Source: Pyropia yezoensis
Taxonomy: Eukaryota > Rhodophyta > Bangiophyceae > Bangiales > Bangiaceae
DNA length: 64,000 bases
Direction of reading: 5' to 3'
NCBI GenBank assembly: GCA_009829735.1
Contig: CM020618.1
Span: forward strand, 28,806,894 to 28,870,893
The notes under the pieces are model-generated. The model had not been told where the DNA came from and did no database searches. It saw only the letters and a program-made list of their open reading frames with translations. Each line of letters starts with the position of its first letter. Within the stretch, counting starts at the first letter, position 1. The position numbers were made by a program, and so were the translations under genes. Of this stretch, positions 31,040-63,771 are shown piece by piece.

Positions 31040-32955
31040 CTAGCGTTCCATACGCCCATCCCCACAACTATAGGGACCGCCCGACCACGAACCCTCAGGG
31101 TCGTAGGCCGGTAGCGGAGGGGCGTAACCCACTCGGGAGGGCCCCGGAGTGGAAGCACTGGGAGGGGCCCGCCGACTCGCGGACCCATCCCCGTCGTAAG
31201 AAAGATGTCCGGAGGTACTCCCTCCGTGACGCGGAAGCTGCTGCTGAGTCGACAGCAGCCGTTGGACAAACTCGTGTCCAACCGCGAGGCGAGTGACCTC
31301 AGCTGCCAATGACTGTCGCGCCGTGGCTGAGTCGCCCGACGCGAGGAAGTGACTGACACGCCGGGTGACCCATGCCAGCATGTCAAGGGAGGCCACGAGT
31401 GAGGCCTCCACCGTGGCGTCATACATGATGGCTCCCAAGTTGGGAAGCATCTCGCCGACGCCACGCGCAATCGGCATCGGGACCGGAGTTCGGACCCGTA
31501 GCGAGCCCAACGCCACGTAGGGTAAGGGTTCGAGGAACTGGAAGGGTGGAGCCTGAGTCGGCTCCACACCCCCCGAGGTCGAGTCGCGACCCGCGGGGAA
31601 GACGTCGGCACAGCTCGCCCGCGGCTTCGAGGGGCTCCTCGATGAGCACCACGACGAGTCGTCGCCGATGACGTCGCCCACCTAGAGCCAGGGGGCGACG
31701 TAGAGGGAGTAACCCCCTCCGCGTAGGGAAGGGAAGGGTCCCCCAACCCCTCCCGCAGGAGCAGCTGCCCCTGCACCAGAGTATGGGTGACATGGACGAA
31801 CTCCCGGGGTGGCTCACTCTCCAACCCCGGCTCTGAACGCTTGTTGCGGCGGAGGAAGGGGTCCAGCTGCGCCCAATCGAGTCGATTGTGCAGGGTGACC
31901 ATACCCTTGAGGAGGAACGGAGCCAGGTCCCCCGCGCCCAAGGCTAACCAGTGGAAGCCAAGGGTTTCCATACCCTCCACCAGAGCCGGTGGGAGGTGCC
32001 ACAGATAACCCCGATGGACTACATCGGAGTACCAGCCCCGAGCCACCACGACCACCCAGTGCGTGGCGAGGTAGGCGAAGACCCGGTTGCACTCCGAGCT
32101 GGAGCGTAGCACGGAGCCAAAGTAGGCAACGAGGAGGGGGATCCGAGCCGGAAACCCACAAGGTACCTCCACTGACTCCCACCACCCTGGGAGAAGAGGG
32201 TACTGGTGCTCACGCTCCTCCAGAGGTACGTGGGTGAACTCCACCCGCGACCCGTGGATGAGGAAGCCCAAGGAGCCCCGGAGTCGGAACTCCTCTCGCA
32301 CCACACCGTGTTGGGCGTGGGCGTCCTCTCCGCCCAGGTAGGGACGGGGAAGGGCACACCACTCGGTAGACACCACCGCGTGGGTGTCGTCGATCTCCAC
32401 GTCGCCCGACCCCATGGCGAGGGAGGCTGACAACGCCTGGACTTCAGGCGCGTCCGCCAGGCAGAGTAGCGCTGGTAGGTCGCAGTCCACCCCATCAGGT
32501 AGAGTCACCTGGTTGGGATACCGACGAGTTCGGCGGTACCATACGTCGGTCCGCCGTGGCTCGGGGATGATCAAGTAGACATCCTTGAGCTTGCAGTCGG
32601 GAAGCTCCCCGACTGACTTGGGAGGCGCCCAGGCTCGGGGCCCCATAGGAGGACGGGGCCGCGGCGGGAGTAGCAGCCGCGACTCAGGAAGGCGGGGGAT
32701 GGGAGTCACATCCCCTTCCGCCACCGGGTTGGAAGACCCATTCCCCGGTGGGACCACAGCCGAGGGGGCAGTAGGAGGTGATGGGGCGGGGACGGTTGCG
32801 GCGGCCGCCTCCGACCCTCGCCCGGGACGAGTCGTCTCCATGGCCGACCCCCGGCTGAGAGACTCCTCAGTCCCGAGGGCCTCCTCTCCCGCCCGTCGCT
32901 TGTCCGACAGAGACGTCGGGGACGGGGACAAAGGCCGACTCGGCTCACCGGCCAT
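31040..32955 (-). pseudogene. Antisense accessory protein of chromovirus 2 (frameshifted copy)
   Basis: On the minus strand ATG 32955 opens a frame that matches the protein encoded at 61828-63771 over its middle. Shared blocks are EH.YP..P.WW..VEVP.GFPA, then FGSV, LAT.W, RG.LWHLP and LREGLG with PYA.GV. After about 31690 the similarity moves to another frame (PNLGA, then a W....R..S.FLA block), ending at the stop 31040-31042. A one-base shift therefore splits it, while the first frame runs on to 31027. The N-terminus (about 110 residues) is proline/serine-rich. No known domain is recognised. It lies between integrase and 3' LTR, opposite to gag-pol. Confidence 0.7.
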
Positions 32956-33950
32956 CTTGAATAACCTTGACCAACTCGGTGAGGTTGAGCACGGGGGGGG
33001 GATACGACCCGCTCCCCCTCCTTGACCGCCACCAGGTTAACTCAACCTGGGCCTTGAACAACAGGGGGGGGACACGACCCACACCCACCAACGACAACAA
33101 AGAAGCCCGACACAAGGGGCAGCGCGGGGAAAACACAACCCCGCCGACGAAGAGCAACAAGGGGGGGACACAACCCACGCCCCCACCGACAACGAAGACG
33201 CCCGACACAGGGGCAGGGAGGGGGAAGACACCACCCCAAGCGGCGACACAAACCGCACGGCGGGAAGAGACAGACCCGCCGACGCGAGGGAGCAGCGGCG
33301 GGAAGACACACACCCGCCCGATCACACGAAGGGGAGAGAAGACCCCGCACCGGCGGCCGAGTACCACCGCTGGCGACCGAGTGCAACACCCCCAACTCGG
33401 GGTGCGCACACCCCTCAGCCCTGACTAGAAGGGGGGGGGAAAGGAGTGAGGAACACCCCGCAGAGAGCCAGCTGGGGGTGGATCGAGCTCTAAGGGGGGG
33501 ACACAACCCGACCCCCCGAGAGCAACCGTACCCCAACTGAAGGGGCAGGTGCAGGTCGACGTTCCGAGTGAGAACGTCGACGCCCTACTCCTCCAGTTGA
33601 GGGGCAGGGGGTGTGGCGGAGGAACGCCGACACCCAGGTTAGGGGGCCCACCCACACGGGAGTCCACCCGTGGAGCACCCTGACCAGGTGGGGGACGACT
33701 TCCCCCCACACCTGTTTCGCGTGGAGAAGGCTCCTCTACCCGAGTTAGGGCAGAGAGCGCACCCCACGGAGAGGGACTGCCTCTCCCGGAGGGCCCCGCC
33801 GGACACGAGTGCAACCCCGGCGTAACCCTGGTGCACGCTAGACGCCAGCGATGCACCGTACTTTGCATCCCGACTCGGGAATTGCACCCTCCTCTCCCGG
33901 TCACTGCGACTCGCAGCTGATTGGACGTCCACCGGGACGGCTGGACTTTT
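32956..33950. repeat. Imperfect direct repeats upstream of the accessory gene
   Basis: A unit of about 98 bp containing GGGGGGGACAC and CGACAAC and GCCCGACACA occurs at about 33063 and 33161, with related GGGGGGACACAACCC at about 33496. This stretch would hold the promoter of the antisense accessory gene. Confidence 0.5.
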
Positions 33951-33963
33951 AAGAAGGGGGAAA

Positions 33964-34502
33964 TGTGGGAGATTGGGCCGGAATTCGGTACCAATACTTT
34001 GGAGATTCGGGTCAAGTGGACCTGACCGGAAGTCGAAATTCACCCGACCCACGATGGTGAAACTTCTGACTTCTGGACGGAAATTCGACTAGGACTTCCG
34101 ACATACTAGAGCAGGGTAATGCTGCTGGTATTTGTTTCTTGGGATTTTTGCACGGGAGCCAGACGGATTTCTACGCTTTGAGTGCTTTGCATGTGGAGTG
34201 ATATGATTGGTTTGTTTGAGGGTTCATTTTCTGAGTGTTTTGAGGGGTTGCGTGAGCGTGTGAGGAGGGTTGATAAGGAGGAACAGCAAGGCGGGGAGAG
34301 CCCACCTTGGCTGGCCAAGCAAGTAAACACCATCTGGCTCCGACACATCTTGTTCGTGCCTTGGTGAGCTGACCCGTTCACCACACGCAAGTTCCGTGTT
34401 CGGCTGTGTGGAGGTGCTTGCTTCCGGTGTCCCAAGTTGGGATATCGGCAATACTCCTCTTCCTTCCCTGACTCGGGGTTGGTGGTTGGGAGTACTGCTA
34501 CA
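33964..34502 (+). repeat. 3' LTR of chromovirus 2
   Basis: It is 539 bp, like the 5' LTR. Differences seen are GGTACC versus GGTATC, GTGAAAC versus GTGGAAC, GAGAGCCC versus GAGGGCCC, CACCATC versus CACCGTC, GCAATAC versus GCAGTAC and TTGGTGG versus TTGATGG. Confidence 0.92.
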
Positions 34503-36117
34503 AGGTCGACCCCATGAAATGGACTTTTCAACGGTTTTCAACTCTCAGGATATCTGTAGCGCTGGCACGCAGATATACGCTGTTTGCGCTTCACCTCCTG
34601 CATCATACAAGCCATGGGAGACCCTTTCAAAGGCACCAACAGGTGCCTATGCGTGTCTATACGTGTTTTGCAATGACGCCACGTCGATTCCGCAGTCAAT
34701 GAGCTCATGGCACCCTCACATGTGTGCAAAAGTGTCCGATTTTGCGAGCCTGATCGCGCGGATACTTTTGCTGTACAAGCGTCGCGGCAATATAGGAAAC
34801 AGAAAGCACTCAAAACGAGACACCCTGAGCTGCCATAGCCATGCGAGAAGGCAGATTGCAGAACGTTTGCGTAACAGCGAAGCTACTGCCGGTCAAAAAA
34901 GGGTTGTGCTCAGCCGCCGAGCTATATGGAATCCACATTTATGTATTTTCATTGCAATGCTATACGAGAGGCTCGACATTTCTTACGGCTACAGTGCCCT
35001 CCCAATTCTCAGGTGGGGCCTTCTGTTGACGACGCCGGCAGCAGATCGTCAGCCCCTCGGACGAGTTTGTCACGGTCCGTTGGACCCTCCCTTACGCAAT
35101 CGATCCCTGCCACCGTCTCTGTCTCTTGTGTCTCTTTCTTTGGCGTTAGTTGCAATGGCTTCCGCCCATTCCCCTTCTGCATCCCCCCCGTTGCGTCTTG
35201 GACCCGCGGTCCTCCTTCCTGGCTACGACAGTACCCCCAAGAGAACTAGCAAGAATCTAGAATGGTCCCAGGTGTGACGGTGGAAGGGTCGGGGGGGGGG
35301 GCGAGGGGGAGGGGGAGGCTGCGACGACGAGTAGCGCAAGGCAGGCAACGCTGAGGGGCAGACATCCGTAGCGGCGTTGTGGAAGGACTGCTGTTGGCTG
35401 AAACAAAGTTGTTGGAATGGCTCAAGTACAGCACAACTCCTTCTGACCGCATGTTTCAGGGTCATGTACCGCTGGTGGGGGTCGCCTTTAAGGTCGATTC
35501 TATGGTTTGGAGCTTGTCCACTCATCGTCCAGTACGTGTGCGTGGGGCTGTCCTAAAAGTGCCGTTGGAGTCGCACCGCTGGGATTGCACTGAGAGCTGT
35601 CCACCTCACCGATGTCATCCCAAAACGAGGCACTTTTAACATGACTTACATGACATTACGAAATCGATATGACTTTACGAAATTACTTGCGGGTACTTCT
35701 GGCTAAGCTTGCCCGAGAAGGAAGAGCTCGTCAAGACGCAAGTGGTGGCGCGAAGCAGTGACCTTGCCGGACAAATTTTTTTTCGTCAAACACTTTCTAA
35801 AGCAGGCTATCCTTGTTCCACCCGTCTTATAGGGAACGCGAATTATAAAGTAATGAGCAGCATTGATGTTAAAACACGTTTGAGATTCATAAATACATAC
35901 TATGTTCATACATTGATTCAAAGCCACTTGATACATATGGCAGCGATACATATATTTCGTGACTGAACATGCTTCCTCTATTTACATAATAAGAATAGAT
36001 TAGTTAGGGCCCTTTGAAGACCAATCTATTAATCCGTTTCACCCCCTGGAACATTTAAAGTGAACGCGGTTTGGAGACGAATGCATGCGGTCTCGGATTG
36101 GTCCGGATGGAAGTCTC

Positions 36118-36195
36118 GGATGGAGGCCCCGGATGGAGGCCCCGGATGGAGGCCCCGGATGGAGGCCCCGGATGGAGGCCTCGGATGGAGGCCTC
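36118..36195. repeat. 13-bp minisatellite
   Basis: GGATGGAGGCCCC is repeated about six times; the last two units have CCTC or CCTCC. Confidence 0.85.
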
Positions 36196-36319
36196 CACGT
36201 TTGATGTCAAGCCGCCTCGGTGTGGGCCGCATTGACACTCCGACATTCTACGTTGTCGTGTCCGGGTACAGTTTTGGGCTCAACGTAGAGCCGCCAGCGT
36301 CATGTTGCAATGTCATCAC

Positions 36320-36400
36320 AGGGCCACGTGGCGTTGAACCTTGGATCTTTATGTTGAAAAGAGGTCGCCGAAATCCGCTAGGCTACGGACCAATCTTGAC
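36320..36400 (-). repeat. tRNA-derived SINE-like sequence, copy A
   Basis: On the minus strand a perfect A box TAGCCTAGCGG (36375-36385) is followed by a perfect B box GGTTCAACGCC (36330-36340) at tRNA-like spacing. A preceding TGTCAAGATT is shared with copies B and C. Stem pairing is poor, so it is not a functional tRNA. Confidence 0.55.
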
Positions 36401-36509
36401 AGGAGTGGTTATCGGCTGAGATTTCATGCGCCGGTCCATAGATAATTTTGAGCGAGTCACAGGAGAGATTGCGCTGTAGGGACTTAGGTCTTACAGAGAG
36501 CAGAACTGT

Positions 36510-41000: not shown

Positions 41001-43628
41001 GAGGATTGGGGGCAAGAGTTGTGTCCCCAACTGTGTCTCCACGCCACTGTGCTCACCAGAGGGGGTGGGCGCAGCGGCGCTTTGCACTCCCTGACGCACT
41101 GCAGCCAGCAGCCTGTGCGCCCAGTGAGGCACTTGGGCAGGGAAGCTGCATCCTCCCAAGCTCCAGGTCCCCTCCGCTGTCCTCTCCAGTATCAGCAGCG
41201 GGTAGGGGACCGTCATCGACTGAGTATATGTAAAGGAGCCTATGCGGTGCAAAAGTTGCTGTGACCCTCCTCAGAGTTGAGTGAGTTGAGCGAGCCAGGA
41301 GAGCCGGCGGCCCGTGAATCACCTAATGAACAGAGATCGCCTTGTTAACGAGGTTTGAGTGATGATCGTCTTTCTTCTCGCGATCTCGAACGGCGTTGAC
41401 GCCTCTGTCGACATTAGAGCGCTATCAATCTGCTTGTGGCTCAAGAAGCAGGTTGATATACGCCATGCGTTCTACCCTGAAGAGCGCGTTTTTCGTTCAT
41501 GCCAACTGGTCGTGCTTTCTGTCAGCTGTTGTGGGTCAAGACGACATTAGCTGACGGCATGCCAGCCTGCACCTGAGGGCTGAGATTGAAAAAGAAATAG
41601 TGGACCCGCGCCGTGTCGTAAGCATAGTGCCGTTCAGAGACTTCTCATGCAGAAGGTAAAATAGAAAGCACTGGGATGGGAGTTTGATGCTGACGTTCTT
41701 TGTCCCGTGCGGTTTGAGAATAGCCATGCAAGAACACATCTTCTGTCGGTGTTCTTGCCCACCTGCAACATTTCCCACACAGGGGAAAACGCTTCATTGA
41801 GTCGTGAGGGAACACTTGCAGCCTGCATACGAGCCGCCATAAGTGCTTCATGCTGCTCTGATCCCGTAGAGACCGGTGCGAATGTGTCACTACCTCGTGC
41901 GCCGAGGGATTGAAGCTACTATGCGCTCGCTGTCTCTCGTTTGATGCGGAAGAAGAACACTCTCTTGTGGAGACGCAACCACGCTACACTATTGTCTGCA
42001 GTAAGCTCGCGAGAGGTCCAAGAAGCGCAGCGTGAGTCGGCCAAGAGTGCGGTGTCGGATTCAATCTTCTAGCTACAGTGGTCGGTGCTGCAGTACACGA
42101 AGCCCAAGGCAGCCATGATGTTTCGCTACTCCCGGTATTGTTTTTGTGCCTTTGTTTCTTCTCGAGAGTCTCTCAGCTCACAAGCCATTCTATAAACGAG
42201 CGCCAATGAACTTAGCGAGTAGCCTCTTTGGACTCTGGTGCCTCTTGCACCAATGTTCCTGGTCTCAGTCGTGCTGCCTTGCTTTTAGAGAGCGGAAATG
42301 GTTGCTGCGGGAGCGCAATGGCGAAGGGGAGGTGCAAGGACCCCAGCGGGGGAAGAGGGCACGCTTTGTACGTAACAAAAAAGACACGCGAATGGTGAAT
42401 TATCCATCGCAGATGGCGGGAGACATGGTTGTTCGTGTGGATGCAAGCTACCTGTAAAGAGCTGTTGCGTGCCGGAGACGTACCCCCTCGAGCGTCGATA
42501 CTGCAGGCGCGGTTTTCACGCCCTGTTTTCTTGGCAGGCTCGGAAAGAGAACTTGGGCGGGGGCTGTCGCTCGGGACACGAAATACAGAGAACGCGCAAG
42601 TGTGCCAGCACAATACGTCTCCACCATGTGCTCTCGGCCACCCGCCAAACCCGCAGGGTCACCAATTGGCCGCCCGGAGCTCTCGGGCGGGGCTACCTAT
42701 TTCATGCTTCTCCCTTTTCTCGCCGCGGTTCTCTGTCGCGATACTGTAGGAGCGCACGTGTCCGCTCTTGTACGAGTTGAGGAGAACAGGTTGTGGCGCG
42801 GTGCCCCATCAGACACAGCGCCGTCTGCCAGTACCGTCCTCACGCTCTCGCAGACCTGTCGCGGGTTCCCCCCACGACAGGCCACCGCCCAGTGCGAATA
42901 TTTGCTGGAGGCGCAGGGGAAAGGAGCATCCTGGACCGCTAAGAACCCAATGGGTGGCTCTCCCAAACCCACGTGTGCTCTCTTCGCCACCATCCCGACG
43001 TGTCCGGTCAGGCCCCTGCCACGCATCCCCCCGGCCCCCTCTCACGCGCGGATGGGTGCCCCGCAGCGGCCCGCCGCTTGTGAAGCCTCTCGTTTGGGCC
43101 GTTGGGTGACCCTCACGCGCGCACGCATGCGTGCAGGCTCGGGCTGTGCCCACCATCCCCCCAAGAATCGCCTTTCTGAAGCCCCCCCTCCGCCGCCCCC
43201 CCCGGCCGCTCCGCGAACGCCACGTGGCGTTGAGCGGGCACCCACAGGCGCTGTCCCGTCCAATTGATGGCGCGTCCTCGGATTAATGGGGTCGCCGCTG
43301 TTGGCGCGAAACGAGGGGCGGCCCGCTCCTTCCGCCCCCCGACCACACCCCCCGGCGGACTCCGGTCACCAGCGGCGCCTCCCCGCCTGCCTGCCGCGTC
43401 CCGCCCCTCTTCCCCTCCGCTTCCCTGCTCCCCACCCCACCACCACCACCTCCACCCCCTCGCCCCACCATTGCCACCTCCCCTCTGTCCCCCCGTCGCT
43501 CTGCCTTGCCGCCCACCGCCTCGCTGCCCGCCCCCGTCGCTGTTGGCACGCCACCTCCGCCGGCTGGCCTACGACCTGAGCCGCCGCCACCGCTGCCGCC
43601 GCCCCCTTCCCCACCTCCCCCAGCGGCC
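38051..43628. other. Long region without recognised genes
   Basis: Only short frames with unremarkable composition are present. Base composition is more balanced than in the genic parts, which fits decayed transposon or intergenic DNA. One minus-strand stretch around 38780-39050 (LLYIHCLLHGSNALYC) is weakly reminiscent of transposase sequence but cannot be assigned. From about 43160 the sequence becomes pyrimidine-rich and leads into the BAH-domain gene. Confidence 0.35.
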
Positions 43629-45114
43629 ATGATCCACTTTGCAAGCCTGCCGCGGTCAAGTACAGCACAGGGGATCGCCGAAGCTGCCTCCGCCGCCGCT
43701 ACCGCCGCCGCCGACGCCGCCGCCGCCTCGGAAGCCGCCATCCTCGCTGCCGGGTCGACAGTCGGTTCGGGTGGTGCCCCTCCCGCCGCCGCCCACCCCC
43801 TTTCCCCCGTTGCCGCCGCGTCGACCGCTGCCGCCACCACCGCGGCGGTCCACCCAGCCGCACCCGCCACCTGCCATGCTGCCGCCGCCGCCACCCCCGC
43901 TGCCGCCACCACCTCTCCCCGGAGACCCCCCACCGGTGCCGATGCTGCGACCGTCACTTCCTCCCCTCCCCCCTCCGCCGCCGCTGGCGCCGCTGGTGCC
44001 GCTGGCGCCGCGGGCGCCGCCGCCTCTCCCACCACCACCGCTCGCCGCCGCTCGTCCCCGACGCGGCGCCGGTCGTCGGCGGTGTCCCCCTCAGAGGTCG
44101 CTGCCGCCGACCTTCACGCCCGCCTCGACGCGGTGCGCCTGCGGCTGCCGGCGGGCGTCACCGCCGCGGCCGCCACCGCCGCCGCCGAGGCCGCCGCGGC
44201 AGCTTCGTGTGGGCCAGCCGCTGCCCGTTCACCCCGGCGGCACGAGAGTGGCAGCGTCGGCGGCGGCGGCGGCGGCGGGCGCGGTGACACGCCCCCGCCA
44301 CCGCCGGTGCTGACTGGACCGTTTGTGTTGCCCGGCGAGCGGGTGATGGTGTGGGCGCCCTACCCGGCGGTAGGGGAGGATGGCGCCGTTGCTGGGGGAC
44401 GCCACCGGGGCAAGGTGACCAATGGGGGGGGGGGCGGGGACGGGGCTGGGTCGGCCCCCTTTAGGGGAGGAGGGGGAGGGGCTGCTGCCCACCGCCGCGG
44501 TGCGACCGCCCGTGATGGGAGTGGCGGCGGCGGCGGCGGTGGTGGTGGTGGTGGGGCTGGCGGCGGCGGCACGTCGCGCATCCCAGTTGCGTCTATCCGG
44601 GGGGCGTCAGTGGTGGAGCCCGGCAGCGTCCATGCGGTCTCCCGCGGCGACGCGGTGCTGCTACGCCCAACGTATGACGTTTTGCAGCCGTATGTGGCGG
44701 TTGTGGTGGACCTCTACGTCGACGCGGCGCAGCCGTCGACGCCGCTCGCCGACGTCTGCTGGCTCTACCGACGGGAGGACTTGGCGTCGAGTGCCCTGGG
44801 TGGGGGTGGTGGCGGTGGCGGCGGCGGCAGCGGTGGTGGCGGGGGTGGTGGCGGCGGCGGGTCGGGCGGAGGTCCCGGTGGGGCCGCGGGTACGGATGCC
44901 GCCGCTGCCGCGCGCGACGATGAGCTCTACTGGACGGACCACGTGGACAAGCGGCAGCCAGCGGCGGCGATTGTTGGCAAGGCAACGGTGGTGGCCCCCG
45001 CCGTCTATCGGGCGGCCTCGCTGGCGTTGGGCCGCGGCTCCCACGCAGCCGTCGGCGCGTCAGCCGCTGTGGGCGGCAGCCGCCGTGTCAGCAAGCAGCC
45101 ACCGCGTGGCGCAC

Positions 45115-45145
<31 letters not shown>

Positions 45146-47875
45146 CCGAGGGGGAAAGGGGTTTGGGGGTCGGGACGGCCCACCCGCGCCGTCTCTGCCA
45201 CCCTCCCTGCGCGCCCCGTGGCGCATGTTGGCGGCCGCCCACCTACCGTCGCTGCTCTACTTTGTCTCCCGAGCGTACGACCCGGTGGCACACAAGCTCC
45301 TCCCCCTCCCGCGCCTGCCGTGGCTGGCGGGCGGTGGGGGAGGGGCGGTCGGCGGAGGGGGGGGCGCCCCGCCCGACGCGGGCGGCGCGCTCCCACGGCG
45401 GCCTGGCGCCGCGGCGACCGCCGCCGGGGGAGGGCGCAAGCGCGCGACCGCCGCGGGCGCGGCCGCCATGGGGGGGGGGGGGGCAGCAAGCGGGCGCGCA
45501 CCGCGCCGCCGCGGCGGTCTCGGTCCCCAACGGAAGCGCTGACGGCGGCTCCCCCTTCCGCCCCACCTGTGGCCCCGTCGACCGTATCGGCGGCGGCGGC
45601 GGCGGCGGCGGCGGTGGGGGCAGCAGCTGCGGCGGTGGCTCCCCCCCCCCCCCCGCCATGGGTGGTGGTCACCCCGTCCGACCCGACCGCCGAAGCCGAG
45701 GCGGCGTTGGTGGTGGCGCTGCACGACGCCGCCGGCATAGGCTCCATTGCTGGCCTGCGCACGTGGCTCTTTTGGCGGGGCCGGGAACCCAAGACGCGCG
45801 AGGCTGTGGTGGGCGGCGGCGGCGGCTTGGCGAGCATGCTCGCCCGGGTGGCGTTCCGGGGTGCCACGGGGGGGGGGGGGTCGTCGGGCGACGGCACTGT
45901 GCGGCCACCGCCGCGCGTTATCCAGATTGATGGGCTGTGGGCCGACGCGGTGACGCTGGGCCTGCCGGGCGGGGGCAAGGGCGGGGAGGGGGGCGGGGGA
46001 GGCGGCACGCTCGCCGACGGAGCGCCCGCCGGCGGGCTCCCAGCCTTCCTGGCACAGCCGCCGCCGCCGCAGCCGCCACGGCAGGAGGGCGCCCCCCCGG
46101 TGCCCCTCATCGAGACGGTCGTCATCCTCACCAACCCGGACGCGCAGCCCGGCCTGCAGGCGCGCCTCCGCGCGACGCTCGACGCGGCGGCGCCCGTCCC
46201 GGACGGCATGCCACGAAGCGCCTGGTGGGCGGGCTTTTCCCTCATCATGGTTTTGGCGCACTTCCTCCGGCCGCCGCCGATGGGCTCTGGGCGGGCGGGG
46301 GTGGACGCAGCTCGGGCGCGGCTCCGTGCCGGCGTGGGTGGGTATTCGCGTGGTTGGTGGGGGGAGCTACCTGCCCCGGGAGCAGACGCCAGCAACAGCA
46401 GCGGAGGCGTGCGCGGCGGCGGCGGCAGCGGCGGCGGCGGCAGCGGCGGCAGCGGTGGCGACGGCAGCGGCGACGCCAGCGTCGCCACCCCCCGCCGCTT
46501 GAAGTTTACGTTTAACCTGGCAATAACTTTTGACACGCCCACGCCCGACAAGCTGACCGCCGCCCTACGGCTGCGGCTCCCCCCAACCCCCCGGTGGTCC
46601 CCCGAGGCGCTGGCCGCGCTCGTCGAAACGGCGCGCACGTGGCACCGGGCACTGCCACTGGCGGCGGCTGCGACCGCCGCCGCGCGGCGCGCCGCCGCCG
46701 CCGACGCGGCGGCGTCGGCGGCCGCCGCTGCCGCCGCCCACGCTGCTGCCGTGGCCGACGTGCGGGCGGCCAACGCGGCGGCGGCGGCGCGGGCGGCGGC
46801 CGCCCGGGAGGCGCTCACCGCCGCGCGGACCGCCCACGGCCGGTCGGCGGCGGCGGCGGCGGCGGTGGCGGCCGACACGGCGACGGCCGCGCGGCTCGCC
46901 GCGGCGGCGGCCGACGCGACCGCCGCCGCCGCAGCGGGGCCCGCCCCCACCCCGGCACTGCCGGCCATTGCCGCCGCCGCCGCCGCCGTGGCGGCCGACG
47001 CGGCGGCGGGCGCCGCCGCCGCGGGGCAGGCGGCCGCGGCGATTGCCGCGGCTCGGCCGCCCAGCCCGCCGCCGCCAGTGGTGCTGCAAGAGCCGCCGCC
47101 GCCGCCGCCGCCGCCGCCGCAGGGCGTGCCCCCGCCCGACGCGCTCGTGACGGTGGGCGTGCCCGCCGTGGCGGCGGCGGCCGCGGCGGTTGCCGTCGAC
47201 ATTGCCGAGCCGTCAGAGGCCGTGTCGCTCCGCCGGCTGAACGCGGGCGAGCGCCTCGCGCTGGGCGTCATCAACATTTGGGCCCAGCGGCAGCCCGTCG
47301 TCGTGGGCGGTCCCCAGCTGGAAGAGTGGCGTGCCGACGGGGATGGCGGCGGTGCTGGGCCGGCGCGGGCCGACGCAGGGGCGGGGCAAGGTGTCGAGGG
47401 GTCTAGCGCATCTGGCGCCGGCGCCGGCGGCAGTGCCGGCACGGGCGGCGTCGCCGCCGGCGCCGCCGGGAGCAGCGCTGCCGGCAATAGTGGGGGCGCG
47501 GCCACAGATGGTGGCCACGACCCCCCCCGGGGACCCCCGCAGGCCCCCCCCATGCTGCGCGTCTCGGCATTGTTGAAGGAGATGCGGGACCTGCTGCCCA
47601 CCGAGCTCGACGCCGCCACCACCGCCAACTACTGCCGCAGCTGGCTGCTGTCGCTGGTCGCCCGCGGGGTGCTGACCATCGTGCCGTCTGTGTGGGCGCC
47701 GGGCATCAGCGACGCGGCGCTGGCGCTCAACGTGAGCCCCGCGGCGCTGCGGGCGCCGCTGGCGGTCAAGCCGCCGCCGGCGGCGGCCAGTGGGGGGGCA
47801 GCGGAGATGGACACGGGGGGGGGGGCGGGGGTCCGGGACCCACCGCCCCCCCCCAATGCCCGCGCCCCCATGTAG
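43629..47875 (+). CDS. Large BAH-domain protein, frame broken only at a 14-G run
   Basis: From ATG 43629 one frame runs to 45542. A second, offset by one base, covers the rest to TAG 47873-47875. At the 14-G run 45470-45483 the two join smoothly (GGG then SKRARTAPPRRSRSPTEALT), and one extra G would give a single protein of about 1,415 residues. A BAH (bromo-adjacent homology) domain lies at about residues 325-456: RGDAVLLRPTYDVLQPYVAV, WLYRREDLAS, DELYWTDHVD and IVGKATVV. BAH domains read chromatin or mediate silencing contacts. The flanks are alanine- and glycine-rich. The C-terminal half has an unassigned region (KFTFNLAITF, then LRLPPTPRWS) and a long alanine-rich coiled-coil-like segment. 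The break is more likely a sequencing or slippage event than true loss. Confidence 0.6.
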
Positions 47876-50133: not shown

Positions 50134-50363
50134 GGCCCGTTCGCAGTTCGCGTACCGTCTCATGTGACGACGGTATATACCTGCGAAAGGAACGGGAGAG
50201 GGGAGTCCGGTCGGTATACCAAATACATAAGTTTTGAACAACTCATCATGACTCTTTTTGAAGTATCACAAACACTGGAGTGTGACTTGAAGAGTGGGGT
50301 GTGCAGATGGTCCGCCCTGCTCGAGCGCCACCAAAGCCCGTTCATATCGCCGCCTACAGCATC

Positions 50364-51551
50364 ATGGACCCCACTCCTATCTGGCGGGCGGGTGCGTTCA
50401 TGACGTCTGTGGCTGGAGCCTTGCATGCCCACCGTGGTTTGTTCTCTGACCCCTTTCAATACACATCTGTTTCTGTACCCTTTTCCGACGTCCGGGCACG
50501 CTACGGCGCCCTATTCCCTCGCGCTATGCGCATGTCCGATGGCGCCTTTGATGGCCTGGTGGCACTCTTGCGCCCTCTCTTGCCCCGTCGTGGCCTCTCT
50601 GCGGAGACGCGTACTGCTTTGGCGCTGCGCTATTTGGGAGGCGGTAGCTACGTGGACATTTGCGCGGCGTTTGGGGTACACCCGGCCTCATTGTACCGCG
50701 CAGTGTGGGAGGTCGTGGACGCTGTTAACTCTACCTCTGCACTGGCTCTGGACTTCCAGGTAGGGAACAGTACTCGTCGACTCGCGTACGCTGCTGGCTT
50801 CCAAGCGGGGCGGAATTCCCCGTTCTCCAACGTCATCGGAGCGCTCGATGGCGTGGCGATTGAGCAGGAGCAGCCCCTACCATCGGATGTTACGTGCGTG
50901 GCCGACTACTACTCTCGGAAGGGCTTCTACGCTTTCAATGTGCAGGCCATTTGTGACGCTTCGTACAAGTTTCGATGGATGTCCTGCATGAGTCCTGGGT
51001 CTTCTCACGACTCGACGGCGTTTTCTTGTACATTGCTCGGGCAGGCGCTCCTGAGGCCGGAGGACCCCATAACAGCGGCGCTGATTAGGGATGGCCACTG
51101 TATTGCGGCAGACGATGCGTACGCTGCAAGCGAGGCATTGGCCGTCCCGTGGCCAGGTGGTGGCAGGGGTGATCGCTGGCGGGACTCTTACAACTTCCAT
51201 CTCTCATCCCTCCGTATTCAGATTGAGCAGGCTTTTGGGATGCTTGTGTGGCGGTGGGGGGTCTTCTGGCGACCTCTTCGTGTGCCCTTTTCGAAGCGGC
51301 CAGCTTTGATTCGAGCGTGCTTTCGTCTGCATAACTATTGCTGTGACGAGTCCGAGAGCGGTACGGACCGCTTGGCACCGTTCGCCAACGACCGCGCTGG
51401 AGGGAATGTTTACTTGGCGCCGAATGACACCGTGAGTGCCGACCAGCGTGGTCGACGTCGCGACCGCGAGCGCTCCTTGTTGAGGGTGAAAATGACTCGT
51501 CGGGTGGAAGAGCTTGGATTGCTGCGCCCGGGGGTACCTCCCATGTACTGA
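50364..51551 (+). CDS. PIF/Harbinger (HARBI1-like) DDE transposase
   Basis: The protein is 395 residues from ATG 50364; an in-frame ATG at 50307 is an alternative. The N-terminal half has a helix-turn-helix-like segment (LALRYLGGGSYVDICAAFGV, about 85-105). The DDE domain keeps all three acidic residues: D162 in GALDGVAIE, D216 in SPGSSHDSTAF, and E288 in RIQIEQAFGMLVWRWG. YYSRKGFYAFNVQAICD lies between, as in all HARBI transposases. The C-terminal LHNYCCDE closes the fold. Length and motifs match active family members, and no frame damage is seen. Its partner protein is encoded convergently 156 bp downstream. Confidence 0.93.
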   Translation: MDPTPIWRAGAFMTSVAGALHAHRGLFSDPFQYTSVSVPFSDVRARYGALFPRAMRMSDGAFDGLVALLRPLLPRRGLSAETRTALALRYLGGGSYVDICAAFGVHPASLYRAVWEVVDAVNSTSALALDFQVGNSTRRLAYAAGFQAGRNSPFSNVIGALDGVAIEQEQPLPSDVTCVADYYSRKGFYAFNVQAICDASYKFRWMSCMSPGSSHDSTAFSCTLLGQALLRPEDPITAALIRDGHCIAADDAYAASEALAVPWPGGGRGDRWRDSYNFHLSSLRIQIEQAFGMLVWRWGVFWRPLRVPFSKRPALIRACFRLHNYCCDESESGTDRLAPFANDRAGGNVYLAPNDTVSADQRGRRRDRERSLLRVKMTRRVEELGLLRPGVPPMY

Positions 51552-56660: not shown

Positions 56661-56692
56661 TTGGGTCGGTGGACCCCCCCAGAAATATCATA

Positions 56693-57519
56693 TGTGGGGC
56701 TTTGTCAACGTAGTGGGAGATGCATTTAGTAAATGCCGGCAGTGATTGTGCTTCGAGTGTTATAGAGTCGAATGTAAGCAAGATGAAGCGGGAGCCACGG
56801 CCTTCGAACCGACCGGGCAATCGCACACAAGATGGCCGTCGTCCGAGCGCACCGAAGCACGAGTGTATCCAAAGAGTCCTTCTTGTCTTATCCTTCCGAC
56901 TTTCTCCTCGCTACTTGATGCGAGGGAGCATATATATAGGCGCGCGTAGCATCCCTGGCCCTGACTTGGCCCCGACCCGGGATGGCGACCAGGGGACACA
57001 ACGTGCCAGGACACGCCCACCGTGTGGGGATGGTTGGCGGCCGTGGCCCGTGCCTGGCACTGGGATGCTGTGGACTACACTACCCACACGTGAGAGAGGG
57101 ACTTCTGATGGGGTTTTGCACATTTGTGAGGGACTTGATTTGAGGGAAATTGAGTGTGAGATTGGTGAGGGAGAATAGAACTAGTAGTGATAGTGCCCCC
57201 CAACCTGACGAGGCTAGACTCGGGTCGGGGCCACTCCGGGGTAGGGGGGGGGGCTACCTGGCCAGAGTGCCGAGGCTCCCCCAGATGCACGTTAAGAGGG
57301 ACAGCGAGGCGCCCATGGCCCGCGCCCTCAAAGAAGAAGACAAGTGCGCGTTTGCTTTTCTCTTCCCCGTGTGCACCACCGTGCATATCTGTCGGCCCTG
57401 CCGGCAGGCACGTGAGGCAACAGGCATACCATCCTCGTAGTTCCCCGTTCTGTGTGACGTGTCCCTTTTCCCCCGAGGGATACTGAAACGTGTCCGATTG
57501 GATCGAGTATTATACCACA
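56693..57519 (+). repeat. LTR of a truncated chromovirus (start tentative)
   Basis: The right boundary is well supported: TATACCACA is followed by TTTGGTGGAGCAGCAGGGG, nearly the same primer-binding region as chromovirus 2. A TATA box CATATATATAGG is at about 56928-56939. The left end is placed at the first suitable TGTGG (56693) and is uncertain. Confidence 0.45.
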
Positions 57520-57733
57520 TGTTTGGTGGAGCAGCAGGGGAGTGTTCTGGAGTGTTTGAGGCGAGACATTTGGGAGCAGCGGTTGGGTTGTTCCTGTTCT
57601 GTCCTCTTCTGTGGTTTGGGAATTATTTGCACCCGTTCACGGGAATCCCATTCCTGGCTCCCCAACCCCTCTCTTGTGGTCTGGCGATCTTTGGACACGC
57701 AGGCAACTGGACTGTGGCTGTCAAGAGACCAAC

Positions 57734-58732
57734 ATGGCTACTCTCCCTGGCACGACGGTGCCCGAAGGGGTAGACCCCGCGTCCCTTGTCGCATCCCTGG
57801 TCACCGCGGGGAACGGTGTCCAACACGGCGTCGTCCCTACGGGCGAAGCAGACCTGGGTGCGACACCCAGTAGCGTGCTTGAGTCTACAGGCGGCCAAGT
57901 ACCTCCTGCTCCCGTTCCTCAGGCTTTCCCTCCTGTGGAAGCCACCCCGGGGTCAACGGTGTTCGAGTCCGCTCGAAGCAGACGACTCCCTCCTGTCGGA
58001 TCTATTCCTGAACTTCCAGGAATACCCCCTGGTGTGTTTACTCCTGGATTTACACAGGGCAGCTGGGTGCGTACACCTCTTCCTGTGAGCGCTAGCAGTG
58101 CCAGAGGCACCGCTGTGACTGGTTTTACGGGCCCCCCTGAGACCTCGACTCCTGGAACCGGTCAAGCTTTTCCTCCCCTGGCCTCCTGTGGGGCGGGAAG
58201 CTCCAAGACCCGCAACCGGAGCAGCCGGAGGCAGTGGCATCGTCGTCGTCACTCTAGAACCAGCGAGACCAGTTCCTCCAGCTCTGAGGAGAAATACGAC
58301 TGGGACGCGACCCCTGGTCCCACCCAGCGCAGGCTGGTCGAGTTTGACTTTCCTGCTCACCAAGTGGGGGACGCCTCCCTGAACAAGGTCACGTACTGGG
58401 GCAACTACCGGCTGGAGAACCAATACTTAGGTTACACCCAGAAGATGGCCAAGAAGATGGCATCCCTGAACCGGCGTATGCAGCCGAGTTTCGTGGGACA
58501 TCCTAAGTTTTCTGGGAAGAAGTCAGCGCTTATCATTGCCTTCATGCGCCAGTTCGTCAAGGCATGTAACGACAACGATATGTCGGAGGGCAAGGCACTC
58601 TACGTTCTAGTTAACTTCATGACCGGAGAAGCGGAACAGCGGTTCGCACAAGTTCTTCCAGACTCAGCCGGACACATCGTCGGGCGCACCGTTGGGAGCT
58701 ACCCGGAAGCGGTCAATCTTCATCTACTTTGA
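57734..58732 (+). pseudogene. gag: Gag of the truncated chromovirus (3' truncated)
   Basis: ATG 57734 (CAACATGG) opens a 332-residue frame. The N-terminal ~200 residues are proline/serine-rich with an RSSRRQWHRRRHSR basic patch and a serine run. The C-terminal FMRQFVKACNDNDMSEGKAL corresponds to the gag core of chromovirus 2 (FLRKFAKACDDNDVSEAEAF). The frame stops shortly after that core with no zinc knuckle, and no pol follows, so the element is truncated or internally deleted at about 58730. Confidence 0.65.
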
Positions 58733-59115
58733 CTACGTGGGAGCCATGAAGATCCCACCAGGCGCGACCTCCCCAACCGCAACAATCCCCCCCCCCCCCC
58801 CCCCCCCCCGCGGTGAGGAGCCCCTGTCCCAATTGACTGCGTCGCACAAGTGTCATTTGCCTCTGCGCCCGTGCTCGTGCCCCTTGATGACGGGCAATTG
58901 AGGGCTATGGTCGCGGACCCGGCTCACCAGCGCACTCAAGTTCCTCCCTCACAGAACGAATTGGGCGGTCTAGATCACTTCCGGCGCTTTATATGGTGGC
59001 CAGCTTGATCACTTCCGATTCCTTACGTCATAGCACGGGAGTTGCTCCTTTCCAGGTCCAGCCATATCGGACCCGAGGCTTGTTGACTTTTCCTGTTGTT
59101 GCTTTCTTCCTTTGA
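58733..59115. other. Spacer with poly-C run
   Basis: A run of about 22 C lies at 58788-58809. The left end of the third Harbinger element should lie in or before this stretch, but no TIR could be recognised. Confidence 0.35.
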
Positions 59116-60096
59116 ATTAACGCATCCTTACCCTTCCTCACGTTTCTCGAAGCCGAATTTGAGGACTACGACAAAGGGCACGCTATTTGGGGCACGACCG
59201 CGGAGGTGGAGCGTCAGATTGTTCTAGAATCTGGCTTGCCGACCCCTCCCCACTCCCCTGCGCGTTCCGGCGCCGTACCCTCCCCTGCGCGCTCCGGGGC
59301 CCGTGCCGTCGAAGGGGATCAGGGAGTGATGGAACAGGCTCGCCGCGTCGGGGACACCATCGGACGCGACGCTGCCTCCAGCCGGGCTGGAGGTCTCCCG
59401 CCCCCCTCACCCTCAGATCCCCAAGCACCTCGTGGGTCACCTGCGCGCCCGTCTCCCCCTGCCGCCGGTGGTGGCTTGCGGGGCAACTCGGCCTCGCCCC
59501 GCACATCTCCTCCTGGCTCACCTGGGCCTCCTGGCTTTGCGCGCGTAGTGCCCCCGGGCGCGTTGAATAGCAAGCGGCCTTCCGCACCTGCCAAGATGGC
59601 AGTGCTGTACCGCATCGCTGATGCGATGACCAGCGCCGAGTCCAGCCGCGCGGAGCGCTTTCAGGCAATTCACATGCAGGCCCAATGGACAAAGGAATAT
59701 CAAGACGGGCGGCTGGCACTCGCTGAGCGTATAGTCTCTGTGAAGGAGCCAAAGGCAGCCCTCGTGCAGCAAAAAAACGACGCAGACAAGCGCCGCAAGA
59801 CAAGCGAAAGCATCACGGCGCGCATGCTTCAGTTTGCGACCGCCAACGTCACTGTGCAGCAGATGCTTGCTATGCATCGTGAGTGGATTGCGGGTTGTGG
59901 TGATGAGCTAGCCGGCCTTGCCTGCGGCGGCAGCGCGGCGCGGGACGCCGGACTGGCGGGCAGTGAGGCGTCTGTGGGAGGAGGCGGGGCGGCCAGGGGT
60001 GGCGGGGCATCCGAGAGTAGCGAGGCGGCAGGAGGGGGGGGGGCGGGTGGTGTCGGGGCAACTGGGGGAGAGTGGGCTGCGGGAGGGTCGGTGTAG
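59116..60096 (+). CDS. Partner protein of Harbinger element 3 (3' exon)
   Basis: The frame is open from 59116 to TAG 60094-60096; the first ATG in frame is 59329, so an upstream exon is expected (pyrimidine-rich TTGCTTTCTTCC at about 59098-59111). LEAEFEDYDKGHAIWGTTAE resembles the segment after the splice in the complete partner protein (NFSQGDTLLDYLF). A proline/serine-rich linker, a coiled-coil-like charged helix (about 59590-59900; VLYRIADAMTSAESS, then QKNDADKRRKTSESI) and a glycine/alanine tail follow. Its position, convergent to a Harbinger transposase, supports the call. Confidence 0.5.
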   Translation: MNASLPFLTFLEAEFEDYDKGHAIWGTTAEVERQIVLESGLPTPPHSPARSGAVPSPARSGARAVEGDQGVMEQARRVGDTIGRDAASSRAGGLPPPSPSDPQAPRGSPARPSPPAAGGGLRGNSASPRTSPPGSPGPPGFARVVPPGALNSKRPSAPAKMAVLYRIADAMTSAESSRAERFQAIHMQAQWTKEYQDGRLALAERIVSVKEPKAALVQQKNDADKRRKTSESITARMLQFATANVTVQQMLAMHREWIAGCGDELAGLACGGSAARDAGLAGSEASVGGGGAARGGGASESSEAAGGGGAGGVGATGGEWAAGGSV

Positions 60097-60385
60097 ACGA
60101 CCGAGGTCCATCCACGAGTGTCCTCGTGCCGGGGTGGGTCAGTGCGCCGGCGCCTGGCGTCGGGCACGGACTGCCGGAGTAGTTTTGGCCCTAGCGCACT
60201 GCAATTGGAAGAGACCTCAAGTTCTTGCAGAGCTCACTCTGTGTTTTGTAATCGTTGTAACGATGCATTGAATTGTTCTCCTCCACGGACAGGCTGGGGG
60301 CCGCCATGCTAACTGCTCCTGCTGGTCGCGAGCTCAATGAGACCTCGACTGGCTCATTTTGTATGTCACAAGATTCATAAAAGTC

Positions 60386-61020
60386 TTACTCATGATACAG
60401 ATCCCACAGAGCATCTGCTAAGTCATCACGCATTAGAACAGCTCGCTCGTAATTGTCACTGTCTTGGGCGTCAGCTGCTGTCGTCGAATCGTCTTGTTCC
60501 CGCGCGTCCACCGTGTCGTCCCAGGTGTCCCCTAGCTCAAGGAGGAAGTTGTGCAAGCGTACACAGCACTCAATAATGCTGGGGACAAACTCCGTTTCAG
60601 CCGAGACGCTCTGGTGTAGGACGCGCCTCCGTCCCTTCAAAAGCTCAAGGGCGTTCTCAACGACAGCTTGAGATGAGCATTCAAACCGGTTAAACATCCG
60701 CCGCCGCTCGGTGGTCAGTTGGTCCTTTAAGTACGGCTTGACAAGCCACGTCTCCAGGGCGAACCCCCCTTCAGCCGAAAGAAGATATCCCAGGTGAAGC
60801 ACCGGTGTGCTGCTCACTTGCCGTTCGTACCATGCGCTTTCTTTGAAGGCGCGGCTGTCGGCCATCGAGCCACAGAGGCCTGATATGGTCATCAGAAACC
60901 GCTTGTCGGCGCCGACGATGGCCAATAAGATGACCCCATAGAAGCCCTTCCTCGTGTTGAACGCCGCCTTAAACTTCGCGGGGGGGGTGCAGATTGGCAC
61001 CAGGCAGCCGTCGATGGCAC
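60386..61020 (-). pseudogene. Harbinger transposase of element 3, 5' part removed by an LTR insertion at 61021
   Basis: The minus-strand frame ends at TGA/TAA 60386-60388 and has HSAIDGCLVPI (first Asp), FNTRKGFYGVILLAIVGADK, GSMADSRAF (second Asp), QLTTERRRMFNRFECSSQAV, VENALELLKGRRRVL (Glu) and CCVRLHNFL. All three catalytic residues are kept. Similarity stops exactly at the LTR edge: the reading past 61021 is LTR sequence. The missing N-terminal part should lie beyond the right end of the window, on the far side of the inserted element. Confidence 0.8.
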
Positions 61021-61489
61021 TGTGGCAAAAACCACTTACACACACGGCACCCAAGTTGGGGCGGTGTACAAGGGCTGCCTCCCGTGTCGGGGGAACCGGA
61101 AGAAGTGCAAGTCGCACACACTCTATCCCTGTTGTGGGGCAATCCCCCCACTGACAAACAAGAAGATGGTGTGTGGTCCAACAGTTTCTTGGTCGGGACG
61201 GGGACGCAGGGCCAAGCCCCGCTGTCCCTCCCCTTATCCCCCCAGGGTCCCCTCAGAATCTCGCCACTCAGAATCTCCCACCCCAGCACCTGCCCACCGG
61301 GCCACACGAAAATTCAAGACGATAAATGCAGAAAACCCTCAAATCCAAGTTGGATTTACTACTAAGCTAACTATCTTAAACTTAGGGAATACGGACCCAA
61401 ATGCAGGGGGAGGAACGGATCAGGCTAGTGGCCTGCCGCCCCTTTCATGGCACGTGTTGCCCCCCTACTTGGGGGTCAATACTGCCACA
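61021..61489 (-). repeat. LTR of chromovirus 3 (element in reverse orientation)
   Basis: It begins TGTGGCA and ends TGCCACA, a 7-bp inverted terminus. CTCCCCTCTCG (61490-61500) reads on the minus strand as the polypurine tract CGAGAGGGGAG directly before the LTR, so this is the 3' LTR of an element running right to left. The first base interrupts a Harbinger transposase; the TSD would be GGCAC (61016-61020). A TATA-like signal is not obvious. Confidence 0.75.
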
Positions 61490-61827
61490 CTCCCCTCTCG
61501 TCAGTTCCGACCGACCCGGTCGGCCCTGTGAGGGGGTGCGTAATCGCACGTCTCGGCGTTGGGGGCGCGACTTGCTGTCCCCCCTTGAGTACGTAACGCG
61601 GATGTGGAGGCGGTCACGTTGACCGCTCCTCTCCTCAAGCTTGCCCACTCGGCAGCTTCCTCTCCCCGGTTCGCACTTCACCATCACCACCACCTCCCCT
61701 TCACCTTCCACTGGGCCGCCCCACGCTGGAGAGGCCACCCGTCTACCCACGATTCGAGTCCCCCTCAACTCGAAGCGGGTCTCGTGCCGCTGTAGCCAGG
61801 GCGTCTCTCCCCAACTTGGGGAGAGCC

Positions 61828-63771
61828 ATGGCGACCCCGGGGGTGGAGACGGACTCTCTCGACGAACGTATGGAGGACACCTTCTACGGTGCAGCGCCCG
61901 CCGGGACTTCCGGCGGGGGCTCCGCGATCGCTCCTGGGGATGGGACTCCCGCGTCACCCGGCTTTGGGTTGACGGCGGGATCTCCCCCGGAGGCGGGACA
62001 AGTTGTCCCGCGTGAGGCCTTGGGGCGGTGGTTTTACCCCGCTTGGCCTCTGTATGAGGAGGGGCTGACTGTTCTTCGATGTGGCCGACTTGGCGCAGCG
62101 ATGGGTCGGGTATGGGACCGCCTACGGGAGAAGTATCCCCGTAGGGTCGGGTTCCCTGCCGGCTTCAGGACGGACCAGTTTGCCTTCCTGGACGACGAGG
62201 AGGTCGAAAACGTACAGCGGGCCAAGGCCATGGTGGACCGCGGGGGAACTATCCCGGGTCCCGGCGATTTGCCGACCTTTACTTGGGACGCGGTGGCAAC
62301 TCGCCCCCCGTACCTTCACGAGGCCGATCCGCGCACTCATCACTTTGATGTGCGGATGGAGAAGGACTTCCGGCGAGGTCCCTACTTGGTGACCTCGGCT
62401 CAACTTGAGTTTCTTCAGCAGTCTGCTGCCAGTAAGGAGCATCACTATCCGAAGAAGCCCGAGTGGTGGCCTCAAGTTGAGGTCCCCTACGGGTTCCCGG
62501 CGTTACTGCCACGGTTGCTTGACCACTTCGGCTCCGTCATGTTGACGGCTGGCCCTGATCACCTGGTGTGGGCCATGTTGGCCACCCAGTGGCTCTTCGA
62601 GGTCATGTCGACCTGGGTGTCTTGTGTTCAGCGGCGGGGGATGCTCTGGCATCTCCCCCTCCGGCTTATCCAAGGTTTGGAACAGCTCACCCCTCAGCTA
62701 GTTGCTGAGGGGTGCTCATCAGGACAACTCACTCTACTTGAGGAGATGCTCCGCCTCCACAAGTTTATCGAGTGGGAGAGCATCGAGCACAAGTTGCGCC
62801 GCCCCACTCGTAGGCCCAAGGACGATGGCGCACTTCGCCAATTCGTATGGGTCGCTCGTGAACCTCACGACGGCCGTGAGGTCCTACGAGAGGGGTTGGG
62901 CATCGGGGACTACCCGTATGCCCCGGGGGTGAATCGCCACACTGCGCCACCCCCGGACAAGGCCATAGTTATGGCCGTGCCCTCATATGATGACCATATG
63001 ACTCAACCCACTGCGGGGGCCCCAAGTCGGGGTCGCAGTTACACCCGGATCCCGCCACCTCGGCGTGCCCCTCCGCTTCCTCCTGTCCCCTACCAGCCGC
63101 ACGGGGACATCCCGATTAGCGTGGCCGTTGAGTCGTCCACCCCGGTGTCCCCCAACTTGGGGGCCACCCTCCTGACGGTATACCCCAAGTTGGTGTTACC
63201 GCCCACGCCTCTAACCTCAGAGATGATGATCACCACGTTGGTGCGCACCATTTCCTGGTTGGCCGCGTCGACCGCAACCCTTCAAACTTCCGAGACTCCT
63301 CAACTTGAGGAGCGCGTTCGTACTGCAGTGGCGACCGCGAGTTGCGAGTCGGTGGCGGAGTTTATGACGGCCGAGTTGGCTCGCATTGGGGCTATAAAGC
63401 CCCAGCCTGCCCCTCTTGGGCGTGGCAAACGTCGTGCGAGCCGGGCTTACTCGCCTCCTCGCCGTCGTCGCCGACGCTCGCGGCGCACTCCCTCCGTGTC
63501 GGAAGACGAGTTGTCTTACTCCGTCTCGGAGTCCTCGACTCCGTCAGAGTCGGAGTCGGTCCGGCGTCTGCGTCGCCAATTTGCGCGCAAGACTAAGCAA
63601 AAGAGCAGCCGCGGTCGTCGCCCCTTGCGCGACCGTGAGGGGCGCGACGGGTCCGACTTGGAGCCGCCGGCCCCTCCTACTGGTGGGGAGCGTTATCGCC
63701 GGGGGTCTCGCCGCTCGCCTCCACGTGAGGGCGAGGGCCGTGGGGTTGGAGAGTCTAGCATGCATGCCTAG
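61828..63771 (+). CDS. Antisense accessory protein of chromovirus 3 (intact, 647 aa)
   Basis: ATG 61828 (GAGCCATGGCG) opens an uninterrupted frame to TAG 63769-63771. Residues ~1-70 are acidic/glycine-rich. The middle (about 75-370) is a conserved globular part with EHHYPKKPEWWPQVEVPYGF, FGSV, LATQWLFEVM, RRGMLWHLPLRLIQGLE, LRLHKFIEWESIEHKLRR and VLREGLGIGDYPYAPGV. A proline-rich linker follows, then a helical part (SEMMITTLVRTISWLAAS). The C-terminus is strongly basic and serine/arginine-rich (RAYSPPRRRRRRSRRTPS), like SR-type or nuclear proteins. It is homologous to the minus-strand gene of chromovirus 2. No known domain is recognised. It lies between pol end and 3' LTR, antisense to the element. 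Confidence 0.75.
   Translation: MATPGVETDSLDERMEDTFYGAAPAGTSGGGSAIAPGDGTPASPGFGLTAGSPPEAGQVVPREALGRWFYPAWPLYEEGLTVLRCGRLGAAMGRVWDRLREKYPRRVGFPAGFRTDQFAFLDDEEVENVQRAKAMVDRGGTIPGPGDLPTFTWDAVATRPPYLHEADPRTHHFDVRMEKDFRRGPYLVTSAQLEFLQQSAASKEHHYPKKPEWWPQVEVPYGFPALLPRLLDHFGSVMLTAGPDHLVWAMLATQWLFEVMSTWVSCVQRRGMLWHLPLRLIQGLEQLTPQLVAEGCSSGQLTLLEEMLRLHKFIEWESIEHKLRRPTRRPKDDGALRQFVWVAREPHDGREVLREGLGIGDYPYAPGVNRHTAPPPDKAIVMAVPSYDDHMTQPTAGAPSRGRSYTRIPPPRRAPPLPPVPYQPHGDIPISVAVESSTPVSPNLGATLLTVYPKLVLPPTPLTSEMMITTLVRTISWLAASTATLQTSETPQLEERVRTAVATASCESVAEFMTAELARIGAIKPQPAPLGRGKRRASRAYSPPRRRRRRSRRTPSVSEDELSYSVSESSTPSESESVRRLRRQFARKTKQKSSRGRRPLRDREGRDGSDLEPPAPPTGGERYRRGSRRSPPREGEGRGVGESSMHA

Follow-up and report, generated by a model that had tools for sequence, protein, structure and literature searches.

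Retrotransposons with long terminal repeats (LTRs) from the red alga Pyropia yezoensis carry an additional gene that is read against their own gag and pol. We analysed a window of 64,000 nt (assembly GCA_009829735.1, contig CM020618.1, positions 28,806,894 to 28,870,893) on the largest of the 11 contigs of the 107.5-Mb genome. Here, two probable chromodomain elements of the Ty3/gypsy group (chromoviruses), termed A and B, each contain one copy of the gene, at 31040-32955 on the minus strand in the plus-strand element A and at 61828-63771 on the plus strand in the minus-strand element B. We show here that the two encoded proteins are homologous (36% identity over 287 amino acids, E=1e-42), as an earlier note on this DNA had claimed, and we have little doubt that the antisense gene is a selected accessory protein gene. 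Both copies lie between the end of pol and the 3' LTR and opposite to gag-pol, in agreement with that note; for B, the pol stop (63883) and the LTR (61021-61489) were located. A and B indeed have unrelated LTRs, which are no more similar than expected by chance (best E=0.11). The description as two genes in two elements is correct in that both are real, but the window copy of A is frame-disrupted and the pair does not stand alone, because homologues exist in two further families, C and E. Between A and B, identity is 61% in pol, 50% in gag (316 columns) and 36% in the antisense protein, hence in this comparison the antisense gene evolves faster than gag or pol.

The length of an open reading frame (ORF) is by itself poor evidence in this GC-rich genome, in which overlapping ORFs of up to 885 amino acids are found at 43-48 kb of the window. 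The case for a gene therefore rests on homology, on codon-position conservation and on omega, the ratio of nonsynonymous to synonymous change (dN/dS). Across the 281 codons aligned in the core of A and B, the first, second and third positions show identities of.516,.541 and.356, compared to.290,.252 and.309 expected from composition. Within families, synonymous and other changes were counted against an expectation that takes the type of base change and the CpG context into account, and copies were picked by DNA similarity or position, never by open frame. Nine copies of B have synonymous changes at 89 of 180 sites, where 52.7 are expected (omega 0.42, p=1e-8). By region, omega is 0.35 in the core and 0.59 and 0.60 in the N-terminus and the tail, the latter two not being significant. 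The pair of C copies behaves similarly (53 of 124 synonymous, 35.0 expected, omega 0.53, p=4e-4). The two shifted frames of the antisense strand give an omega of 0.96-1.60 (all sites) in one test and of 1.10-2.19 in another. Only 2 stops were gained where 13.1 are expected (P=2e-4), and in five copies every other reading frame of the gene is interrupted by 5-25 stops. The long-term selection postulated in the earlier note is thus borne out by the A-B codon positions, by omega values below 1 compared to 0.96-2.19 in the other antisense-strand frames, and by the homologues in C and E, whose split from A and B agrees with that of their elements.

Further families were sought in nineteen 10-kb stretches, spaced by about 2 Mb on the same contig as the window (labels of the type L0xx denote stretches of DNA from this genome, and A or B copies are members of the respective element family). 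An antisense homologue is carried by 4 of the 19 stretches, and several others end within pol. L024 contains an additional B copy. L026 and L027 represent the third family, C, whose homologue is distant, antisense and located beyond a pol with a chromodomain-like end, and L031 represents the fourth family, E, again with an antisense homologue beyond the pol end. For C and E this is the position that can be given, since their LTRs were not located, and the interval between pol and 3' LTR is established for A and B only. In C, the sequence common to both copies stops at about 7670 of L026, roughly 0.7 kb past the point where the antisense gene begins, which is what an element end at this place would produce. 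When C and E were left out of the profile, both were still recovered, with E values of 6.5e-8 (C) and 5e-6 (E) and with the next unrelated ORF at 0.061; when C is included, E is found at 1.1e-8, the next unrelated ORF among 1244 at 0.047 and the best reversed ORF at 0.28. The gap between pol and the antisense gene measures 125 bp in A, 111 bp in B, 146 bp in C and about 480 bp in E, and the reverse transcriptase (RT) stretches of the families are 58-71% identical. Chromodomain-like pol ends are present in A, B and C; the one in A was scored by profile and lies below the Pfam cut-off, while those of B, C and E were judged by eye. Long ORFs adjoin the antisense gene of C on its 5' side in L026 (7409-9979, 856 amino acids) and L027 (4956-6743, 595 amino acids). 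They are probably flanking DNA, being mostly outside the sequence common to both copies.

An RT tree built from single open frames has the form (((A,B),(C,D)),F),E with the window element chromovirus 1 outside, and support is 97 for A+B, 92 for C+D, 90 for A-D and 71 for the group with F. Chromovirus 1 has no antisense gene, and family D (L023) is truncated by the end of its stretch. In the tree of the antisense proteins, C and E are split from the rest, including A and B, with a support of 98. This split agrees with the RT tree and is the sole one that can be tested for four families. As far as the trees can tell, the antisense gene appears to have been inherited with its elements. Relatives are also found in another species of the Bangiales: four named proteins of Pyropia vietnamensis are A-like with 55-60% identity. 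An alignment-based search returned 36 proteins, 27 of which are 69-88% identical to one protein, P0012. The matches that carry a source name (4 of 11 in the protein search and 2 of 36 in the alignment search) are hypothetical proteins of P. vietnamensis.

The protein itself has no recognizable domain, as had been stated before. No Pfam family was found in the two window proteins at E values up to 5 or in two C proteins at up to 0.01, and a scan of 43 family members gave just four single-member matches, each with an E value of at least 0.051. No relative was found among solved structures (PDB), and a fold comparison with PDB and BFVD returned no match, the underlying AlphaFold2 (AF2) models being of low confidence (mean predicted local distance difference test score, pLDDT, 50.8 and 52.3). 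A profile comparison of five Gag proteins with 32 family members showed no relation (hhalign Prob 0.1, E=0.54). On a simple hydropathy scale, six proteins contain no clear membrane segment, with highest 19-residue means of 1.17-1.71. The two AF2 models, made for proteins of different subfamilies (B and P0005), share a predicted layout: a mostly helical core (about 80-325 in B and 125-370 in P0005) is followed by a beta hairpin, and a disordered linker then leads to a C-terminal module, which is again helical. This module would comprise about 80-95 residues, with a pLDDT of the block of 70-90 in B and of about 50-80 in P0005. Taken together, these features would suit an adaptor or a regulator better than an enzyme or an envelope protein.

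Antisense genes are known from other retroelements. The HBZ gene of human T-lymphotropic virus (HTLV) is located near the 3' LTR and encodes a basic leucine zipper (bZIP) protein. The red algal gene is similar to HBZ in being an antisense retroelement gene near the 3' LTR; unlike in HBZ, no bZIP domain turned up when 43 family members were scanned against Pfam. The HTLV antisense genes are cited as analogues in excerpts of two accounts of plant elements (PMC7264820; PMC11963269). Retand elements of flowering plants, described in the excerpted text as a non-chromovirus lineage of Eudicotyledons and Liliopsida, have antisense ORFs with a TRP28 domain (PF04195) between pol and the 3' LTR in nearly all recently active elements, and their function is given as unknown (PMC11963269). 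As far as that excerpt describes Retand, the red algal gene resembles these ORFs in being antisense to gag-pol and, in A and B, in lying between pol and the 3' LTR. The likeness to plant antisense ORFs that had been noted before thus holds for place and orientation, but does not extend to the plant domain. PF04195 has no match in the whole algal genome and none among the 43 family members at the level of HMMER, beyond which remote homology is possible. Antisense ORFs at the same place are also described, in the available part of one source, for Grande (gene23), RIRE2, PvRetro13 and the fungal Boty (PMC7264820). According to this excerpt, the protein of Grande is located in the nucleus and its region has a promoter of its own that drives transcription, and no clear similarity to other proteins is reported for any of the four (PMC7264820). 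We set the red algal gene beside them by description of place and orientation. In their RT, integrase and C-terminal chromodomain-like stretch, the elements resemble plant and algal chromoviruses, and the excerpted accounts of these do not mention an antisense gene (PMC3350952; PMC2864245). For Porphyra yezoensis, the excerpt of one of them lists no retrotransposon chromodomain, its table giving expressed sequence tags as negative and genome data as NA (PMC3350952). Thus, the kind of arrangement is the same as in the plant Retand and Grande elements; new are a protein without detected relatives and its occurrence in red algal chromodomain elements.

How might such a gene act? We regard it as probable, by a limited margin of confidence, that A, B, C and E inherited the antisense protein gene from a common ancestor and that it acts in the cycle of the element itself. 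The ancestor of these chromodomain Ty3/gypsy elements would have gained an extra gene in reverse orientation beyond the end of pol. It is likely, as judged from the arrangement and from analogy, that the gene gives rise to an antisense mRNA of its own; its promoter would lie in the 3' LTR or in the leader of 0.3-1.0 kb, so that transcription would converge on pol. The product may be an adaptor without enzymatic activity, in which a disordered linker joins two modules predicted to be helical. It would act in trans on the cycle of its own element, and most plausibly in the nucleus, regulating expression or silencing of the element. The antisense proteins of Grande and Retand have been proposed as regulators of this type, and HBZ of HTLV is known as one. 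By analogy to these proteins, a nuclear or regulatory role could well apply here, but we put it forward with some reserve.

Several observations weigh against the reading of an inherited and selected gene for a regulatory protein. The eight copies of A have synonymous changes at 39 of 111 sites with 33.1 expected (omega 0.78, p=0.13), which is not significant alone; five of the eight taken alone give 0.63. The earlier note had itself named a dN/dS near 1 across copies as an outcome that would speak against selection, and such a value is not seen in B (0.42) or C (0.53). At shared sites, omega is 0.27 for A (n=11, p=0.03) and 0.67 for B (n=21, p=0.25, counted without L024). Pol, used as a yardstick, has an omega of 0.84 in A (p=0.16) and of 0.51 in eight copies of B, compared to 0.78 and 0.42 for the antisense gene, so that within families the antisense gene is conserved about as strongly as pol in A and B, where pol was measured. 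The codon pattern is less clean when C is included: core identities at positions 1, 2 and 3 are.393,.456 and.404 for A-C (expected.274,.254,.336) and.361,.420 and.353 for B-C (expected.269,.255,.319). One frame of the sense strand also has a low omega (0.58-0.64), yet it contains 11-25 stops, and given these we read its value as a shadow of the third positions of the antisense frame. The RT tree places family F (L034) within the group, with the support of 71, yet no antisense homologue was found within its stretch, which would mean that some lineages can do without the gene. The AF2 models are of low confidence overall, and an arginine-rich tail is present in B only among six proteins, hence a basic signal of the nuclear type is not common to the family.

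Other explanations have to be considered. The antisense RNA itself might matter, if convergent transcription led to double-stranded RNA that limits copy number and the long frame were incidental. The gene faces pol across about 0.11-0.48 kb, and roles of antisense RNA are discussed for plant elements in the excerpted account (PMC7264820). However, selection acts on codons, as seen in positions 1 and 2 between A and B, in the omega of 0.42-0.53 in B and C and in the too few stops. We therefore consider this explanation very improbable, although an RNA effect may still add to that of the protein. Capture of an ordinary host gene, followed by spreading through recent copying, had been raised in the earlier note as what would overturn its reading. 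The absence of a known domain would suit such an origin, and capture of genes by plant elements is described in the same excerpt (PMC7264820), but homologues occur across families with RT only 58-71% identical, they diverge together with pol and gag, A and B have unrelated LTRs, the tree splits agree and the named relatives are hypothetical proteins of P. vietnamensis. A single recent capture is thus slightly less probable still, while a very old one, before the families split, is possible.

Two further proposals concern the role of the protein. Plant elements have sense ORFs in the same interval, between pol and the 3' LTR, for which envelope-like or cell-to-cell movement proteins were proposed. 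The opposite orientation of the red algal gene and the lack of a clear membrane helix by hydropathy (six proteins, highest 19-residue mean 1.71) make this the least probable of the alternatives. A structural assembly factor, whose helical modules and disordered tails would bind Gag or RNA as particles form instead of working in the nucleus, would fit the predicted helical and apparently non-enzymatic layout as well as the arginine-rich tail of B. We regard it as unlikely, but clearly less so than the others; the missing profile relation to the own Gag counts against the protein being a duplicated Gag, not against its binding to Gag. The reading as an inherited antisense gene acting on its own element would have a wider meaning. 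The antisense accessory genes that retrotransposons carry pose an unsolved puzzle, as they are conserved in plant lineages with their function unknown, and a second protein family, for which no similarity to the plant one was found, at the same place and in the same orientation in red algal chromodomain elements would point to more than one origin of the arrangement. If so, position and direction themselves need a reason. Our most far-reaching proposal, which is tentative and slightly more doubtful than the regulatory role itself, is that this antisense gene defines a lineage of chromodomain elements in Bangiales, encodes a protein family without known relatives and was fixed in the ancestor of at least four families independently of Retand. 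A second transcription unit that faces gag-pol and supplies a trans-acting controller of the element's own expression or silencing would then have evolved more than once, with abundant families depending on it.

The families differ in abundance and age. A first look at the genome gave 136 unscored candidates for A DNA, of which the best 40 copies were listed, and 1521 for B DNA. Among the best-scoring copies, a choice that biases the counts towards intact ones, the match is free of stops in 59 of 64 A-like, 59 of 68 B, 44 of 62 C and 95 of 99 E copies. The 99 scored E copies have 98-100% protein identity and are thus recent and near-identical, which makes the antisense gene testable. The host seaweed is grown in culture. 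An open frame of at least 836 amino acids surrounds the match in 78 of the 99 E copies, and L031 (437 amino acids) is a shorter variant. An open frame of exactly 437 amino acids recurs in five other scored copies, hence the shorter variant may be inherited. In L031, 908-1909 and 4132-5442 are two pieces of the E antisense gene with a masked run in between.

Element A is complete in the window. Its 5' LTR (24268-24806) and 3' LTR (33964-34502) form a 539-nt direct repeat with 98.9% identity. The gag ORF (25520-26887) contains a zinc knuckle (PF00098, E=4.6e-4, 20.6 bits with a cut-off of 20.8). Pol (26992-30915) is distributed over three open frames (26992-28866, 28903-29436 and 29581-30915) and matches RVT_1 (5e-34), Integrase_H2C2 and rve, as well as Chromo (PF00385, E=5.8e-4) with 20.2 bits, under the cut-off of 25.1. 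In the window copy of the antisense gene, the ORF of 642 amino acids slips out of the family frame short of its end, and the C-terminal portion lies in another frame (31043-31681). Among the eight A copies compared, the length change is seen in this copy alone, one other has a stop and six are uninterrupted; uninterrupted versions of 638 amino acids are present elsewhere in the genome. The leader between the antisense gene and the polypurine tract (32956-33950, minus strand) is, by its position, a candidate site for the antisense promoter. The tract itself (33951-33963, plus strand) consists of 13 purines immediately 5' of the TG of the 3' LTR.

Element B extends beyond the window. Its 3' LTR (61021-61489, minus strand, 469 nt) is 95.1% identical to the second LTR at C1:28884281-28884749 (window-equivalent 77388-77856), 16.4 kb away. 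A leader of 338 bp (61490-61827, plus strand) separates the 3' LTR from the ATG of the antisense gene, which is uninterrupted and encodes 647 amino acids, and eight of the nine B copies compared are likewise uninterrupted. The 3' end of pol occupies 63883-64000 on the minus strand, and gag-pol runs on in L017. The 5' part of the element hosts a nested copy of chromovirus 1 (L019, 98% pol identity). ORFs resembling Harbinger-type transposases by eye are located at 50301-51551 and 60386-61117, and the latter reads into the B 3' LTR, as if broken by the B insertion.

Chromovirus 1 (13930-20836, plus strand), which served as comparison element, has its pol end at 20526 and a repeated 3' LTR stretch from 20537, and its chromodomain passes the PF00385 cut-off with 53.2 bits. 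Upstream of gag, this element and the copy at L019:571-6081 contain an ORF of 259 amino acids with zinc-finger-like cysteines. In chromovirus F (L034:2560-4146), the pol frame extends C-terminally past the chromodomain-like stretch, and we take this extension to resemble the methylase-like domain of DIRS elements. A gag-like fragment that is 28% identical to the gag of A, followed by an ORF of 296 amino acids and with no adjacent pol ORF listed, is found at 57611-60096 of the window (plus strand) and is a remnant of another element. The long overlapping ORFs in several frames at 43283-47875 lie in GC-rich low-complexity DNA and are likely spurious.

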